In this document: one piece after another, positions 36,702-42,103 of the stretch
How the letters are laid out: each line of letters begins with the position of its first letter
Position numbering within the stretch: position 1 is the first letter of the stretch
Assembly: GCF_000422865.1 (NCBI RefSeq)
Contig: NZ_AUGW01000011.1
Span: 1-64,000 of the forward strand
Reading direction: 5' to 3'
Length of the DNA stretch: 64,000 nucleotides
Origin: Oceanospirillum maris DSM 6286
Lineage (GTDB): Bacteria; Pseudomonadota; Gammaproteobacteria; Pseudomonadales; Halomonadaceae
Position numbers and translations under genes: made by a program
The notes under the pieces: generated by a model
Database searches by the model: none
Told to the model about the DNA's origin: nothing
What the model saw: only the letters and a program-made list of their open reading frames with translations

Positions 36702-36977
36702 TTACGACAGAAATTGGACAAGACCGTAACCCATCAGAGCCCAAGCTATCATCGGATTAAATAGCAGTCGCCAAAGGTTGCCTTTTGGTTCAAAGCCGAC
36801 ACCATGAATAAAGCCTGCACTAACGGCCCACATAAAAAGAGTGAATAGACCATGATCCACTTCGTGAATCGATTCCGCAATAAGCTTAGGGTAGGCTGTT
36901 AGCACTACGCTAATAATAATAGCGCTGATAAGAGAAAGCCCTTGGCTCCAATATGACCTGGGATAGGGGATTAACAT
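36702..36977 (-). CDS. ybgE: Cyd operon membrane protein YbgE
   Basis: A 91-residue protein with about three membrane helices. The stretch FTLFMWAVSAGFIHGVGFEP and the following KGNLWRLLFNP match the conserved core of YbgE, found in cytochrome bd operons. It lies last in the cyd operon after a hairpin that may reduce its expression. AGGT precedes the start. Its biochemical role is unclear; it is not needed for the oxidase structure itself. Confidence 0.88.
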   Translation of the reverse strand: MLIPYPRSYWSQGLSLISAIIISVVLTAYPKLIAESIHEVDHGLFTLFMWAVSAGFIHGVGFEPKGNLWRLLFNPMIAWALMGYGLVQFLS

Positions 36978-37107: not shown

Positions 37108-37227
37108 TTAGCCCTGTGGCTGGTCGTTATCCAAATCGAAATCGGGATCAGATTCTAGCCACATCGCATTGATAATGCCGAATGAAATAGCCAGAAGCAC
37201 ACCCAGAATCCAAGCAAAATACCACAT
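37108..37227 (-). CDS. cydX: Cytochrome bd small subunit CydX
   Basis: A 39-residue single-helix protein, start at the ATG at 37227 preceded by AAGGAG. The N-terminus MWYFAWILGVLLAISFGI is almost identical to E. coli CydX (MWYFAWILGTLL), followed by the acidic tail typical of the family. CydX stabilises the haem centres of the bd oxidase. It follows cydB by about 100 bases. A longer in-frame reading upstream exists but overlaps the end of cydB and is not supported. Confidence 0.93.
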   Translation of the reverse strand: MWYFAWILGVLLAISFGIINAMWLESDPDFDLDNDQPQG

Positions 37228-37327
37228 AATCAATCTCCTTTTTAGCAGGTTAACCATCAACTCATTACCTATAGATAAGGCGCTATACTCTTGATGGGAA
37301 ACCTGCTCGGATAAATAAAGCTTTAAA

Positions 37328-38467
37328 TTAATAAGAAAGCGGGTTGCCTTCAATCTGCTTGCTCGTCACACGGCCCCACATCACTCGATATGTCCAAAGG
37401 GTATAAAGCAAAATGATGGGTACAAAAATCATTGCGGCGATAAACATAACGTTCAAGGTTAAGTGGCTAGACGCTGCATCCCAAAGAGTTAAGCTACTAT
37501 TCGGGCTTGTCATTGATGGTAATACAAACGGGAATAATGAGAATGCTGCTGTGCTGATGATTGCCGTCATCGTTAGGCTGTTACAGGCAAATGCCAAACC
37601 AGAGCGGCGAGCTTTTACCAGTAATAGCGTGAGCAAACCCATAACAAATCCCGCCACAGGAGCGGCTATCATCCAGCTATAGGTGGCGTAGTTTGAAAGC
37701 CAAGCCCCATCCACAATACTCACCTGCTTGCTTAAAGGATTCGGCATCGCATCTTTCGCCGGCATCATATCGATATGTAAGCCTGGCATACCTTGCAGCA
37801 GCATAAGACCCGCACCAGCAAAGGCAGCAAGCATGATGATAAGTGCAATGATACCTGCTCGACCTGCGCGATCAGCAATTGGTTGGTCGGCGCGCATCTG
37901 TAGCCAAATAGCCCCATGAGCTGTAAGCATAGATAAACTTACCACACCACAAAGCAAAGCAAAGGGGTGGAATAGGCCAAAGAAACTACCGGTATAATTA
38001 GGGCGTAAAAAATCATCCAGATAAAAGTCGACGCCCAATAAAAGATTACCAAAAGCCACGCCAAAAACTAACGCAGGTACGGAGCCACTAATAAATAAAC
38101 CCCAGTCCCAAGTGCTTCTCCAGCGTGGATCTGCAATTTTACTGCGGTAGTCAAAGCCTACTGGTCGAAAGAAAAGAGCAAACAACACCAGCATCATCGC
38201 AAAGTAAAAACTGGAAAATGCCACCGCATAAACTGCAGGCCATGCCGCAAAGAGCGCGCCGCCAGCGGTAATAAACCAAACCTGATTACCATCCCAGTGG
38301 GGGCCAACGGTATTAATGATAATACGGCGTTCTGTATCTGTTTTACCCAGAAAAGGCAGTAATACGCAGGCACCCATATCAAAGCCATCGGTGATCATAA
38401 AGCCGACGAGTAATACGCCAACCAATATCCACCAGACTAGCTTGAGCGTTTCATAATCCATAATCAT
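37328..38467 (-). CDS. cydB: Cytochrome bd ubiquinol oxidase subunit II (CydB)
   Basis: A 379-residue inner-membrane subunit with eight or nine helices. The start block [21 protein letters not shown] and the following [11 protein letters not shown] are highly conserved in CydB, as is [11 protein letters not shown] near residue 54. Length equals that of E. coli CydB. AGGAGGT precedes the ATG. The start overlaps the cydA stop by four bases (ATGA), ensuring equimolar synthesis. It is part of the terminal quinol oxidase with high oxygen affinity. Confidence 0.96.
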
Positions 38468-40062
38468 ACCGCACCTCCTTCAGATGGAACCTGATGAGAC
38501 TTGTTATCAGTGCTTTTCTCTTCAAAATGATATCGACCTGTATGCAGCGCACTGGGGCCAAGGCGTGCAAACTTAAACATCAAGTACATCTCAATCACGA
38601 GCAGCAGTGTATAGAAAGAAACCAGAGCACCAATGCTGATATAGAGATTGCTGGCCTCAAGGGTTGAGGTACTTAGGTGCGTTGGTAAAATTTCACCAAT
38701 CGACCAAGGTTGACGGCCATATTCTGCGACAACCCAACCGGTTTCAGCGGCAATCCAAGGTAAGGGTAGCGCCCAAACAATGGCTTTTAAGAAACGCGGC
38801 TTGCTTTCCAGTTTACGGGTGGCGTTAAAGTAGAAGGCCAGCGCGAAGATTAGCAGCATGGTAAAGCCACTGGCGACCATAATACGGAAGCTCCAGAAAA
38901 GCGGCGTAACGTTAGGAATCGTATCCTGGGCTGCCAATTTTATCTGTTCTTCGGTAGCATCAATCACATTCTCGGTATAGCGTTTTAGCAGGAGGCCATA
39001 ACCTAGGTCTTTTTTGACCGCTTCGAAGGCGGCGATCGTTACCTCATCGGTTTGGCCGGCACGCAGTTTTGTCAGTAGATCATAGGCGATCATACCGTTA
39101 CGAATGCGGATCTCGTGTGCGATAATAAGATCTTTAATGCCGGTCACTTGGCCATCTAGAGAGCGGGTCGCAATCAAACCTAGGGCATAAGGAATTTTAA
39201 CGGCATAATCAGTGGTCATGGTTTCCTGATTAGGAATGCCAAATAGAGTAAATGACGCTGGAGCAGGGTGTGTATCCCACTCGGCTTCTACGGCGGCTAG
39301 CTTGGTTCTTTGAACATCACCTAGCTCATAACCGGACTCATCGCCGAGTACAATGACCGATAGAATAGAAGCCAAGCCAAAGGCAGATGCGATGGCGAAT
39401 GAGCGGCGAGCAAACGGTAGATCACGCTTTTTCAGCAGATAATAGGCACTGATGCTCAGTACAAACATAGAGCCTGTGACATAACCGGCTGCAACTGTGT
39501 GTACAAATTTCACTTGAGCAACGGGGTTAAATACCAGATCGGCGAAGCTGGTCATCTCCATGCGCATAGTTTCGTAGCTAAATTCTGCACCGACTGGATT
39601 TTGCATCCAACCATTGGCGATTAAAATCCAAAGGGCCGATAGATTCGAACCTAAGGCCATTAGGAATGTCACCATTAGATGGCGGCGAGGGGATAATCGA
39701 TCCCAGCCAAAGAAGAATAGGCCGATAAAGGTGGATTCTAAAAAGAAAGCCATTAAACCTTCAATGGCCAATGGCGCACCAAAGACATCACCCACATAAT
39801 GCGAGTAATAAGCCCAGTTAGTGCCGAACTGGAACTCCATTGTTAGGCCCGTGGTTACCCCTAAGGCAAAGTTAATCCCGAAGAGTTTGCCCCAAAACTG
39901 GGTCATGTCTTTGTAGACCTGCTTACGGGTCATCACATAGACAGATTCCATAATGACCAGTAAAAAGGCTAAGCCTAAGGTCAGGGGGACAAAGATAAAG
40001 TGATACAGCGCGGTTATCGCGAACTGTAACCGGGACAGATCAACAACTTCTTCTGTAATCAT
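38464..40062 (-). CDS. cydA: Cytochrome bd ubiquinol oxidase subunit I (CydA)
   Basis: A 532-residue integral subunit holding haems b558, b595 and d. The haem ligand His21 lies in [21 protein letters not shown] second ligand His lies in [17 protein letters not shown]. The diagnostic GRQPW motif is in [18 protein letters not shown] near residue 448. The region between helices VI and VII is long, indicating the L-type quinol loop found in E. coli. The start overlaps the cydP stop by four bases. It reduces O2 to water at low oxygen and resists NO, H2S and cyanide. Confidence 0.97.
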
Positions 40063-40340
40063 GGTGTTTCCCGTGGTGAAGTAATGTCAACGTCTGACGT
40101 AGTCGCCATAGATGGATTGGAAGATGCCGGAGCAGATTGAGAGACAGCGTCACGTTGGTTAACAGTGGCCGTCTCTGAAGGCTGCGGAAGCATTCGGGTA
40201 TTAAGCAGGCGAGCGCCAACATCGCTGTCATTAATGACAGTGGCGGAAGGAACAATAAAGTTGATAATGCCATAGAGCAATATCAGCTTTACCAGAAGTA
40301 TGAGACTGAGTTCTCGTACTAATTTATGTTTTGCAAACAT
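40059..40340 (-). CDS. cydP: CydP-like small membrane protein, first gene of the cyd operon
   Basis: A 93-residue protein with start at the ATG at 40340. The N-terminal part [24 protein letters not shown] is a single membrane helix with the LVRE-x4-LLxKLxLL pattern of CydP, a small subunit or assembly protein seen with bd oxidases in other gammaproteobacteria. The last ~50 residues are Ser/Thr/Pro-rich and probably disordered. Its stop overlaps the cydA ATG. A -24/-12 promoter lies ~140 bases upstream, making cydP the first gene of cydP-A-B-X-ybgE. Confidence 0.8.
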
Positions 40341-40493
40341 TGAGTTTTCCCACACAGTTGTGCAAAAACACCGTGTTTGTGAAAACAGCGTATTCCGTTG
40401 CATAGCATTCTGATCCTGCAGTGATTGATGGCGACAGCAAGCATCGCCTTCCCAGAACTAACAATCAAAAGTGATACCTTTGACTAGCTTTGT

Positions 40494-40509
40494 AGCAAGG
40501 TTTATGCCT
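40494..40509 (-). promoter_or_regulatory. Sigma-54 (-24/-12) promoter of the cyd operon
   Basis: On the minus strand AGGCATAAACCTTGCT matches the sigma-54 pattern TGGCACG-N4-TTGCW, with the essential GG and GC exactly ten bases apart and a complete TTGCT. The predicted start of transcription is near 40483, giving a leader of about 140 bases before cydP. A sigma-54 activator gene is directly divergent. Confidence 0.75.
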
Positions 40510-40563
40510 GTTTCTCTTTTTTTGTATCTTATTGATTTTTATAGGTTTTTTTAAGAGATCGAG

Positions 40564-40627
40564 ACAACTGTTTATTTTTGTTTTTTGTCAGTTGTGACAA
40601 TACTGTCTTAGTTGTGCCATAACTGAC
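40564..40627. promoter_or_regulatory. Candidate enhancer sites for the divergent sigma-54 activator
   Basis: Repeated related elements: CAACTG (40565-40570), the near-palindrome GTCAGTTGTGAC (40587-40598, GTCA-N4-TGAC), TAGTTGTGCC (40610-40619) and AACTGAC (40621-40627). The outer GTCAGTT and AACTGAC form a perfect inverted repeat. They lie about 55-120 bases upstream of the -24 element of the cyd promoter, the expected place for an enhancer-binding protein. Confidence 0.6.
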
Positions 40628-40729
40628 GGCAGTAACGGGGCTCTGATTGAATCATTAATCGCTTGGCTTGGTATTGCATTGCCGAGTTGAATTCTTTCAT
40701 TAAATTTAAGGACTTTTTAGGAACTCTTA

Positions 40730-42103
40730 ATGACAGATCCAAATCGTTTACCGACAGAGCTGGTTTCGATGTTGCAAAGCTACCCCGATCCCGCTGTTTT
40801 ATTATCGGCAGATTATCGAATTCTTTCAGCAAATGCAGCATACCGCCAGACCTATGGTGATGTCAGCGTGGCAAAACGTCACTGTTATGAAGTGTCCCAT
40901 CATTACGACAGGCCCTGTGATCAAATGGGAGAATCCTGTCCGATGCGACAGTGTATGCAAAGCAATAAGGCGCAAAGGGTGTTTCATCTTCACCATACGC
41001 CGCAGGGTGAAGAGCATGTTGATGTTGAACTACACCCTGTAGAGGCCGCTGACGGTGAGACCCGTTATTATCTTGAGGTTATGCGCTATAGCAAATTGGC
41101 CAGCCCTAGGGCCGGAGGACAAGGATTGATCGGGCGTTCCGTTGCATTTATGGCATCGCTGGCGCTAATTGAGCGGGCCGCACCTAGTGAAACCACCGTT
41201 TTACTGTTAGGGGAATCCGGCACGGGTAAGGAACTTATGGCGCAGGCGGTACATCAGGGAAGTCCGCGCAACCAAGGGGCATTTGTACCGGTTGAGTGCT
41301 CTGGTTTAACGGAAACGCTATTTGAAAGTGAGTTGTTTGGTCATGAAAAAGGCGCGTTCACTGGTGCCCATAGTCGCAAAACAGGTTTAGTAGAAGCTGC
41401 TAGTGGTGGAACACTCTTTCTGGATGAAGTTGGTGATATTCCATTATCACTACAGGTTAAGTTATTGCGTTTATTAGAAACCGGCACTTATCGTCGTGTG
41501 GGAGGTATTGAGCCGTTAAAGGCCAACTTCCGTTTAGTGTGCGCAACGCATCGTAATCTTGAGCAGCAAGTGGAGAAGGGGGCGTTCCGCATGGATCTTT
41601 ATTATCGGATTAATGCTTTCCCTGTGGTTTTACCATCATTGCGTGAGCGGATGGTGGATATTCCGCTTTTGGTTGAAAGTCTGTTACCTCAGTTTGCCAA
41701 GGGGCGAGATATTCAGGTTACGCCGGATGCGATGACATTGCTTGAGCGTTACTCTTTTCCTGGCAATATTCGAGAACTGCGTAATATTTTAGAGCGTGCT
41801 TGCTTATTGGTTGATGATCACTGGATTGAAGAGAAGCATCTACCCGATACTTGCCAAAATACAGGCCATGTAAGTGCTGGCGCTGCTATTGATGGCGGAA
41901 TTAGCCTTGATCGAGGAGAAGATAAAAACCGCTTTGAGCAGGCTTTTTATGAGAACCGTATTCTGCCTATTGATGAATTAGAGTCCGCCTATCTGGAGTG
42001 GGCTTTGCATCAATTAAAAGGTGACAAAGCCATGTTAGCGAGGCTGTTACAGGTTAGTGAACGCACGTTATACCGTAAGCTCAAACAGGCCAAAGCCTAT
42101 TAA
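40730..42103 (+). CDS. Sigma-54 dependent activator with four-cysteine PAS domain, likely regulator of cydPABX
   Basis: A 457-residue enhancer-binding protein. Residues ~10-120 form a PAS domain with four cysteines, C52-x10-C63-x6-C70-x4-C75, plus histidines between them. This suggests an iron-sulfur, haem or thiol sensor. The AAA+ domain has Walker A GESGTGKE (161-168), the sigma-54 contact loop GAFTGA (208-213) and [12 protein letters not shown] as Walker B. A Fis-type helix-turn-helix ends the protein ([20 protein letters not shown]). AGGA precedes the ATG. It is divergent from the cyd operon, which has a -24/-12 promoter, so oxygen or redox control of the bd oxidase is the likely job. The ligand is not known. 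Confidence 0.9.

Follow-up and report, generated by a model that had tools for sequence, protein, structure and literature searches.

Background

The closest described counterpart of the system reported here is FisR, which Li et al. reportedly described in Cupriavidus pinatubonensis JMP134 in 2017. FisR is described as an activator of sigma-54 promoters that detects reactive sulfur via three conserved cysteines (PMC9774590), and in C. pinatubonensis its targets are sulfide oxidation genes. We describe a divergent gene pair in Oceanospirillum maris DSM 6286, located in a 64,000-nucleotide stretch of DNA (contig NZ_AUGW01000011.1, positions 1 to 64,000; hereafter the window), in which a sigma-54 activator with three likewise conserved cysteines neighbors not sulfide oxidation genes but the cytochrome bd operon cydP-A-B-X-ybgE. 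On the strength of sequence comparison, we propose with a probability of roughly 0.78 that this activator is a FisR-family, sulfane-sulfur-responsive switch that turns on the cydP-A-B-X-ybgE operon.

Cytochrome bd is sulfide-inducible in several bacteria. In Acinetobacter baumannii, sulfide raises cydAB and cytochrome bd is refractory to sulfide. The sulfide response of that organism involves a divergent sigma-54 activator, FisR (A1S_1707), as proposed for the window, but its demonstrated target is pdo1-sqr-tauE-hsd, and the accessible text assigns no regulator to cydAB (PMC7315123). According to a 2022 paper that proposes YgaV for this role, it had been unexplained how sulfide induces cytochrome bd in E. 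coli; YgaV is likewise sulfide-responsive and affects cydAB transcripts, but it is a SqrR/BigR-type repressor and not a sigma-54 activator (PMC9774250). FisR, sigma-54 control and a sulfide-induced, sulfide-resistant cytochrome bd are each already known. FisR-type control of cyd or cio promoters was not found among the literature matches listed, which covered few subscription papers and were accessible in part. What appears to be new is that cyd/cio promoters are coupled to an activator of the FisR type, for which sequence support is good.

Results

The window activator and its cysteines

The activator gene lies at 40730-42103 on the plus strand and encodes 457 amino acids. A domain search identified PAS_4 (1.4e-12), Sigma54_activat (3e-65), an AAA lid and HTH_8, which is the FisR-class layout of a regulatory N-terminal domain (here PAS, approximately residues 1-120), an AAA+ domain with GAFTGA and a Fis-type helix-turn-helix. 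As the original prediction had reported, the gene is divergent from the cyd operon, the GAFTGA and Walker A (GESGTGKE) motifs are both intact, and the PAS domain carries cysteines at positions 52, 63, 70 and 75. The closest named homologues are those of O. sanctuarii (80%) and O. linum (79%), and RpoN is encoded in the O. maris genome. The AlphaFold model of the full activator has a mean predicted local distance difference test score (pLDDT) of 81.

The four cysteines differ markedly in their conservation. C52, C63 and C70 (segment 40883-40939, plus strand) are each present in 81/81 aligned homologues and in 29/29 of the best new loci from a class-wide search, and this set is missing from four other AAA+ activators of the O. 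maris genome. C75 (codon 40952-40954, plus strand) is present in 31/81 homologues and 5/29 new loci; by group, it occurs in 5/5 Oceanospirillum, 13/30 cydA-linked, 14/17 cioA-linked, 1/18 dioxygenase-linked and 3/16 other rows. A constant four-Cys iron-sulfur (Fe-S) site was rejected as a feature of the family on these counts, and the three-Cys pattern fits FisR. Judging from the homologues, C52, C63 and C70 are likely the same three residues as the cysteines of C. pinatubonensis FisR, which we take to be C53, C64 and C71.

The original prediction had the PAS domain reading redox state, oxygen, nitric oxide (NO) or an Fe-S cofactor, and had tied itself to conservation of the -24/-12 bases and all four cysteines in close relatives that keep the gene pair. 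Within Oceanospirillum both persist, but 17/30 cydA-linked rows lack C75. NreB-type Fe-S PAS sensors have a PAS domain with four Cys ligands; the window family shares the PAS domain with cysteines, but three of these are constant, and four conserved cysteines are found in Oceanospirillum (5/5 rows) and not across the family. A PAS domain that responds to O2, NO or redox state through a bound four-Cys Fe-S cluster, haem or flavin would agree with the effects of O2 and NO on cyd genes in other bacteria, with the retention of C75 in Oceanospirillum and in 27/47 oxidase-linked rows, and with structural modeling. In the AlphaFold model of the PAS domain alone (pLDDT 87), a PAS fold was obtained with the cysteines within a helical segment, and the nearest solved structures in a fold search were flavin PAS/LOV domains, the flavin adenine dinucleotide (FAD) PAS domain of NifL first. 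These fold matches are neutral, since they neither show nor exclude a cofactor, and a search of Protein Data Bank sequences with the PAS alignment returned just three weak matches (E 0.29-0.36). C75 is missing from 50/81 rows and 24/29 new loci, and the same activator family stands beside sulfide-detoxification genes; a cofactor-based sensor is thus an improbable explanation.

Partner genes of the activator family

In order to survey the gene neighborhoods of the family, 293 genomes of the bacterial order were searched (E <= 1e-90), giving 56 matches in 55 genomes, of which 55 matches were fetched (the match in G118, at a contig end, was left out). Divergent genes were labeled cydA or cioA according to identity to the window CydA, the cioA type being judged from 29-43%. 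On this basis, cydA was divergent in 15 loci and a cioA-type gene in 16, and one locus had a peroxiredoxin gene ahead of cioA. A persulfide-dioxygenase-type gene was divergent in 17 loci, a TauE gene with a weak dioxygenase match in one, and another gene in five. A bd-type oxidase is thus divergent in 32 loci and sulfide-detoxification genes in 18. On the activator tree (a quick tree with long branches), a minimum of six changes is needed to account for the distribution of cydA, cioA and pdo partners, which suggests that the activator has swapped partners repeatedly while retaining the three cysteines and the palindrome described below.

Named genomes show both kinds of partner. The activator stands beside cyd in Hydrogenophaga taeniospiralis (L015) and, by annotation, in Pseudoalteromonas xiamenensis (L137). 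In C. metallidurans, a homologue with 50% identity is divergent from a dioxygenase-type gene and an SQR-like gene, an arrangement that matches FisR. The former reaches 389 bits for the sulfur dioxygenase model, where the longer bifunctional model has a cut-off of 625, and the latter 182 bits versus a cut-off of 525. One operon (L026) joins both functions, with cioAB followed by an SQR-like gene. The gene after cydAB in L015 and L030 shares 91-97% identity with an octaheme cytochrome from the tetrathionate reductase family; the L016 octaheme cytochrome scores 589 bits for TIGR04315 (cut-off 375). Among the 29 new loci, the divergent side carries cydA in six (L176, L189, L190, L194, L196 and L201), and in three (L199, L200 and L202) it has a clear match of the dioxygenase or SQR type. 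Five others (L180, L181, L186, L187 and L198) face Pyr_redox_2 flavoproteins that match SQR best among the NCBIfam models, with 86-128 bits, far under the cut-off.

A gene of the metallo-beta-lactamase (MBL) fold and of unproven function precedes cydA in L196. The FisR-divergent genes of L177, L189 and L196 resemble reduced MBL-fold proteins in which HxHxDH is seemingly missing by eye; that of L196 passes Pfam Lactamase_B (29.7 bits), those of L177 and L189 do not, and cydA follows in L189 and L196.

The activator is placed in the FisR family because of its three cysteines and because its homologues are divergent from persulfide-dioxygenase-type and SQR-like genes. With this placement, the activator likely responds to sulfane sulfur, and not to O2 or NO or through a four-Cys Fe-S cluster, with a sulfide-resistant oxidase as its output; the signal named in the original prediction is therefore not well supported, as the three constant cysteines and these partners point to reactive sulfur. 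A FisR-family activator could also be set to respond to a different thiol stress or respiratory poison (cyanide, oxidants or copper shortage) under which bd-type oxidases are useful too. Thiol sensors can be promiscuous, and cyanide-insensitive-oxidase-type genes are among the partners (a type assigned from 29-43% identity to CydA), but the recurrent non-oxidase partners are persulfide-dioxygenase-type and SQR-like genes, and we regard such tuning as unlikely.

Promoter and upstream palindromes

The predicted -24/-12 element CAGGCATAAACCTTGCT lies at 40494-40510 on the minus strand, directed toward cydP, and has exact GG-N10-GC spacing. Upstream of it are an IHF-like site, AATCAATAAGATA (8 of 9; 40525-40537, minus strand), and two palindromes on the minus strand, the proximal TGTCA-CAAC-TGACA (10 of 10; 40586-40599) and the distal CGTCA-GTTA-TGGCA (9 of 10; 40615-40628). 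Measured from the promoter, the palindrome centers lie at 82 and 111 bases, placing the two copies 29 apart, and the IHF-like site falls between palindromes and promoter. The -24/-12 element, the GTCA-N4-TGAC repeats (one exact, one with 9 of 10) and the CAGTTG repeats, which overlap these palindromes, had all been named in the original prediction, and the GTCA-N4-TGAC repeats are real. A further exact palindrome, TGTCATTAATGACA, is located at 40226-40239, within the cydP-like open reading frame (ORF).

Conservation was assessed in 79 distinct loci, which are the homologue search results after removal of copies, using approximate -24/-12 weights of our own. A score of at least 19 was reached toward the divergent gene in 54/79 loci and toward fisR in 2/79, with a shuffle mean of 2.0. 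Counterparts of the window -24/-12 element are present in Oceanospirillum relatives. Palindromes were counted in the 71 loci that remained after eight with a promoter score below 17.5 were dropped. Exact TGYCA-N4-TGRCA was found at 49 sites in 44/71 loci (shuffle mean 0.09; largest value 2 in 100 sets), and any other spacer from 0 to 12 gave at most three sites. Allowing one mismatch gave 100 sites in 59/71 loci, against a shuffle mean of 1.63 and no more than 16 sites at any other spacer. The common layout is two copies 21-23 bases apart. By partner, the palindrome occurs in 22/28 cydA, 16/17 cioA, 15/15 pdo (two of 17 pdo loci having been dropped for low promoter score) and 6/11 other loci, making it common to the dioxygenase-adjacent homologues and the window. 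One site (9 in 10) is present in C. metallidurans, and P. xiamenensis also has one. In 38/70 loci, against about 10.6 expected, the 80 bases before the promoter contain an IHF-like site (8 or 9 of 9), in most cases at a distance of about 22 or 33 bases from the promoter.

The motif definitions were applied unchanged to the 29 new loci. A promoter score of at least 18.5 was found in 20/29 (opposite strand 2/29) and the palindrome in 19/29, with 35 sites at spacer 4 and at most five at other spacers.

As a control, 38 cydA/cioA upstream regions were compared; promoter and palindrome are both present in 10/15 with an adjacent FisR and in 3/23 without one. The control spans just 450 bases before cydA and therefore undercounts in Oceanospirillum, where cydP intervenes. 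The three exceptions are G074 and G258, with a FisR gene on the same contig that is not a close divergent neighbor, and G295, with a remnant. Possible action of FisR on distant cyd genes was examined in 12 further cyd/cio upstream regions from eight genomes, and promoter and palindrome together were found in 0/12. In six of these genomes FisR is next to a dioxygenase gene and in one it is next to other genes; the eighth, G288, has no FisR match.

These oriented promoters and shared palindromes give good support to the proposal, made in the original prediction, that the divergent activator controls the cyd operon through sigma-54. In E. coli, cyd genes use sigma-70 with ArcA and FNR. An FNR-type box in the cydP/activator intergenic region was set aside, there being no FNR-like site with up to two mismatches between 37526 and 41019, and no sigma-70-like site was found in 40300-40800, which says little because 0.9 sites are expected by chance. 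That the gene pair is incidental and cyd is driven by sigma-70 with ArcA, FNR or similar, as in E. coli and as the retention of the operon in G295 after fisR loss might suggest, is very improbable given the orientation-specific promoters and the shared palindromes, which are absent from 20/23 cyd upstream regions without an adjacent FisR, the lack of an FNR-like site (ArcA sites falling outside that search) and, weakly, the sigma-70 scan.

Operon genes and other sulfur and oxidase genes of the genome

The cyd operon runs on the minus strand. The cydP-like ORF (40059-40403) scores 26.9 bits for NCBIfam CydP, below the 29.6 cut-off; the family match starts at residue 28, and the gene likely begins at an inner start (40059-40340). 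It is followed by cydA for cytochrome bd subunit I (38464-40062, by domain search), cydB for subunit II (37328-38467), an ORF containing cydX (37108-37353, the match starting at residue 43) and ybgE (36702-36977), with cydB and ybgE assigned by domain/family search.

A persulfide-dioxygenase-type gene (58%) is located elsewhere in the O. maris genome. As a second target of the activator it was examined for a -24/-12 site upstream, and none was found; this gene is therefore probably under other control. With cyd as the adjacent operon in the window, in place of pdo/sqr targets, and the dioxygenase gene elsewhere without a -24/-12 site, the activator is FisR-type by sequence and not FisR by known regulon. 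In four Oceanospirillum genomes (L138, L140, L142 and L143), an inverted repeat of the type TGGAATATTG...AATATTCCA precedes the persulfide-dioxygenase-type gene and is perhaps a candidate site of an ArsR-type sulfur repressor.

O. maris also has a second bd-type oxidase (cioA-type, Cyt_bd_oxida_I; contig C9, L175, 2146-8310), divergent from genes for a sigma-54-domain response regulator and a seven-transmembrane (7TM)-type histidine kinase. A -24/-12-like sequence, TTGGCCTAACGATTGCT, lies approximately 230 bases upstream of this oxidase; related sites occur before such oxidase genes in L134, L164 and L170-L172, and a similar kinase-regulator pair is found in L205. Both bd-type oxidases of O. 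maris may be under sigma-54 control.

Discussion

What the sequences show directly is the divergent pair of genes, the motifs and how they are arranged, the conservation of the cysteines, the family of the activator and the presence of RpoN. The signal, DNA binding, the sign of the effect and transcription as such we infer from them as follows. Sulfide entering the cell would give rise to persulfide or polysulfide, which would modify C52, C63 and C70 of the PAS domain. From the two TGYCA-N4-TGRCA palindromes, the modified activator would act on RpoN-RNA polymerase bound to the -24/-12 element, with IHF probably helping to bend the DNA, and ATP hydrolysis would open the cydP-A-B-X-ybgE promoter. 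Cytochrome bd, which is not inhibited by sulfide, would then be made, and respiration could continue.

Several results weigh against this switch. No SQR of the type searched was found in the O. maris genome, which leaves a gap at the step from sulfide to sulfane sulfur. Genes other than oxidase or detoxification genes neighbor the activator in 5/55 loci of the order, and for most of the 29 new loci tblastn gave no match to cyd, dioxygenase or SQR genes. The fisR-cyd pairing is also dispensable. Oceanospirillum G295 (L130) is, by its sequence, a natural loss of fisR, with a 24-residue remnant (79% identical) beside persisting cyd genes, -24/-12 element and both palindromes, and Oceanospirillum G297 (L093) has fisR with its promoter facing stretches that resemble cydP and cydX, and cydAB had no match within the 8 kb taken.

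The motifs have weaknesses as well. The window -24/-12 element scores 18.8 of 22.3, a value reached by 10/1000 dinucleotide shuffles of the region; it is moderate alone for this reason and strong because of its conservation in relatives. The exact palindrome occurs at 32 places in the genome versus 15 for the reversed pattern, so it is not rare alone, and it was first spotted in loci that were later counted, a circularity that the new loci and the spacer control answer in part. The best promoter scores of C. metallidurans (18.0) and P. xiamenensis (17.3) come without an exact -12 GC, and 9/29 new loci lack the promoter and 10/29 the palindrome. Lastly, C75 is commoner beside oxidase genes (27/47) than beside dioxygenase genes (1/18). 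Lineage and function are not separable in these counts, and the bias leaves room for a changed sensor, which is possible in some oxidase lineages.

More broadly, FisR-type sensors could be a widespread sulfide-to-respiration switch in Proteobacteria, with one activator and one palindrome repeatedly coupled to CydAB or CioAB, replacing or joining sulfide-detoxification genes, so that cytochrome bd would there be primarily an oxidase of sulfide stress and not of low oxygen. We consider the case for this generalization to be evenly balanced.

Conclusions

If the proposed switch is correct, direct control by a FisR-type sigma-54 activator would provide a mechanism for sulfide-induced cytochrome bd in Proteobacteria other than E. 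coli. The cyd operon would be recast in these organisms as a member of the sulfide response, with defined sites and residues at which this role may be tested.

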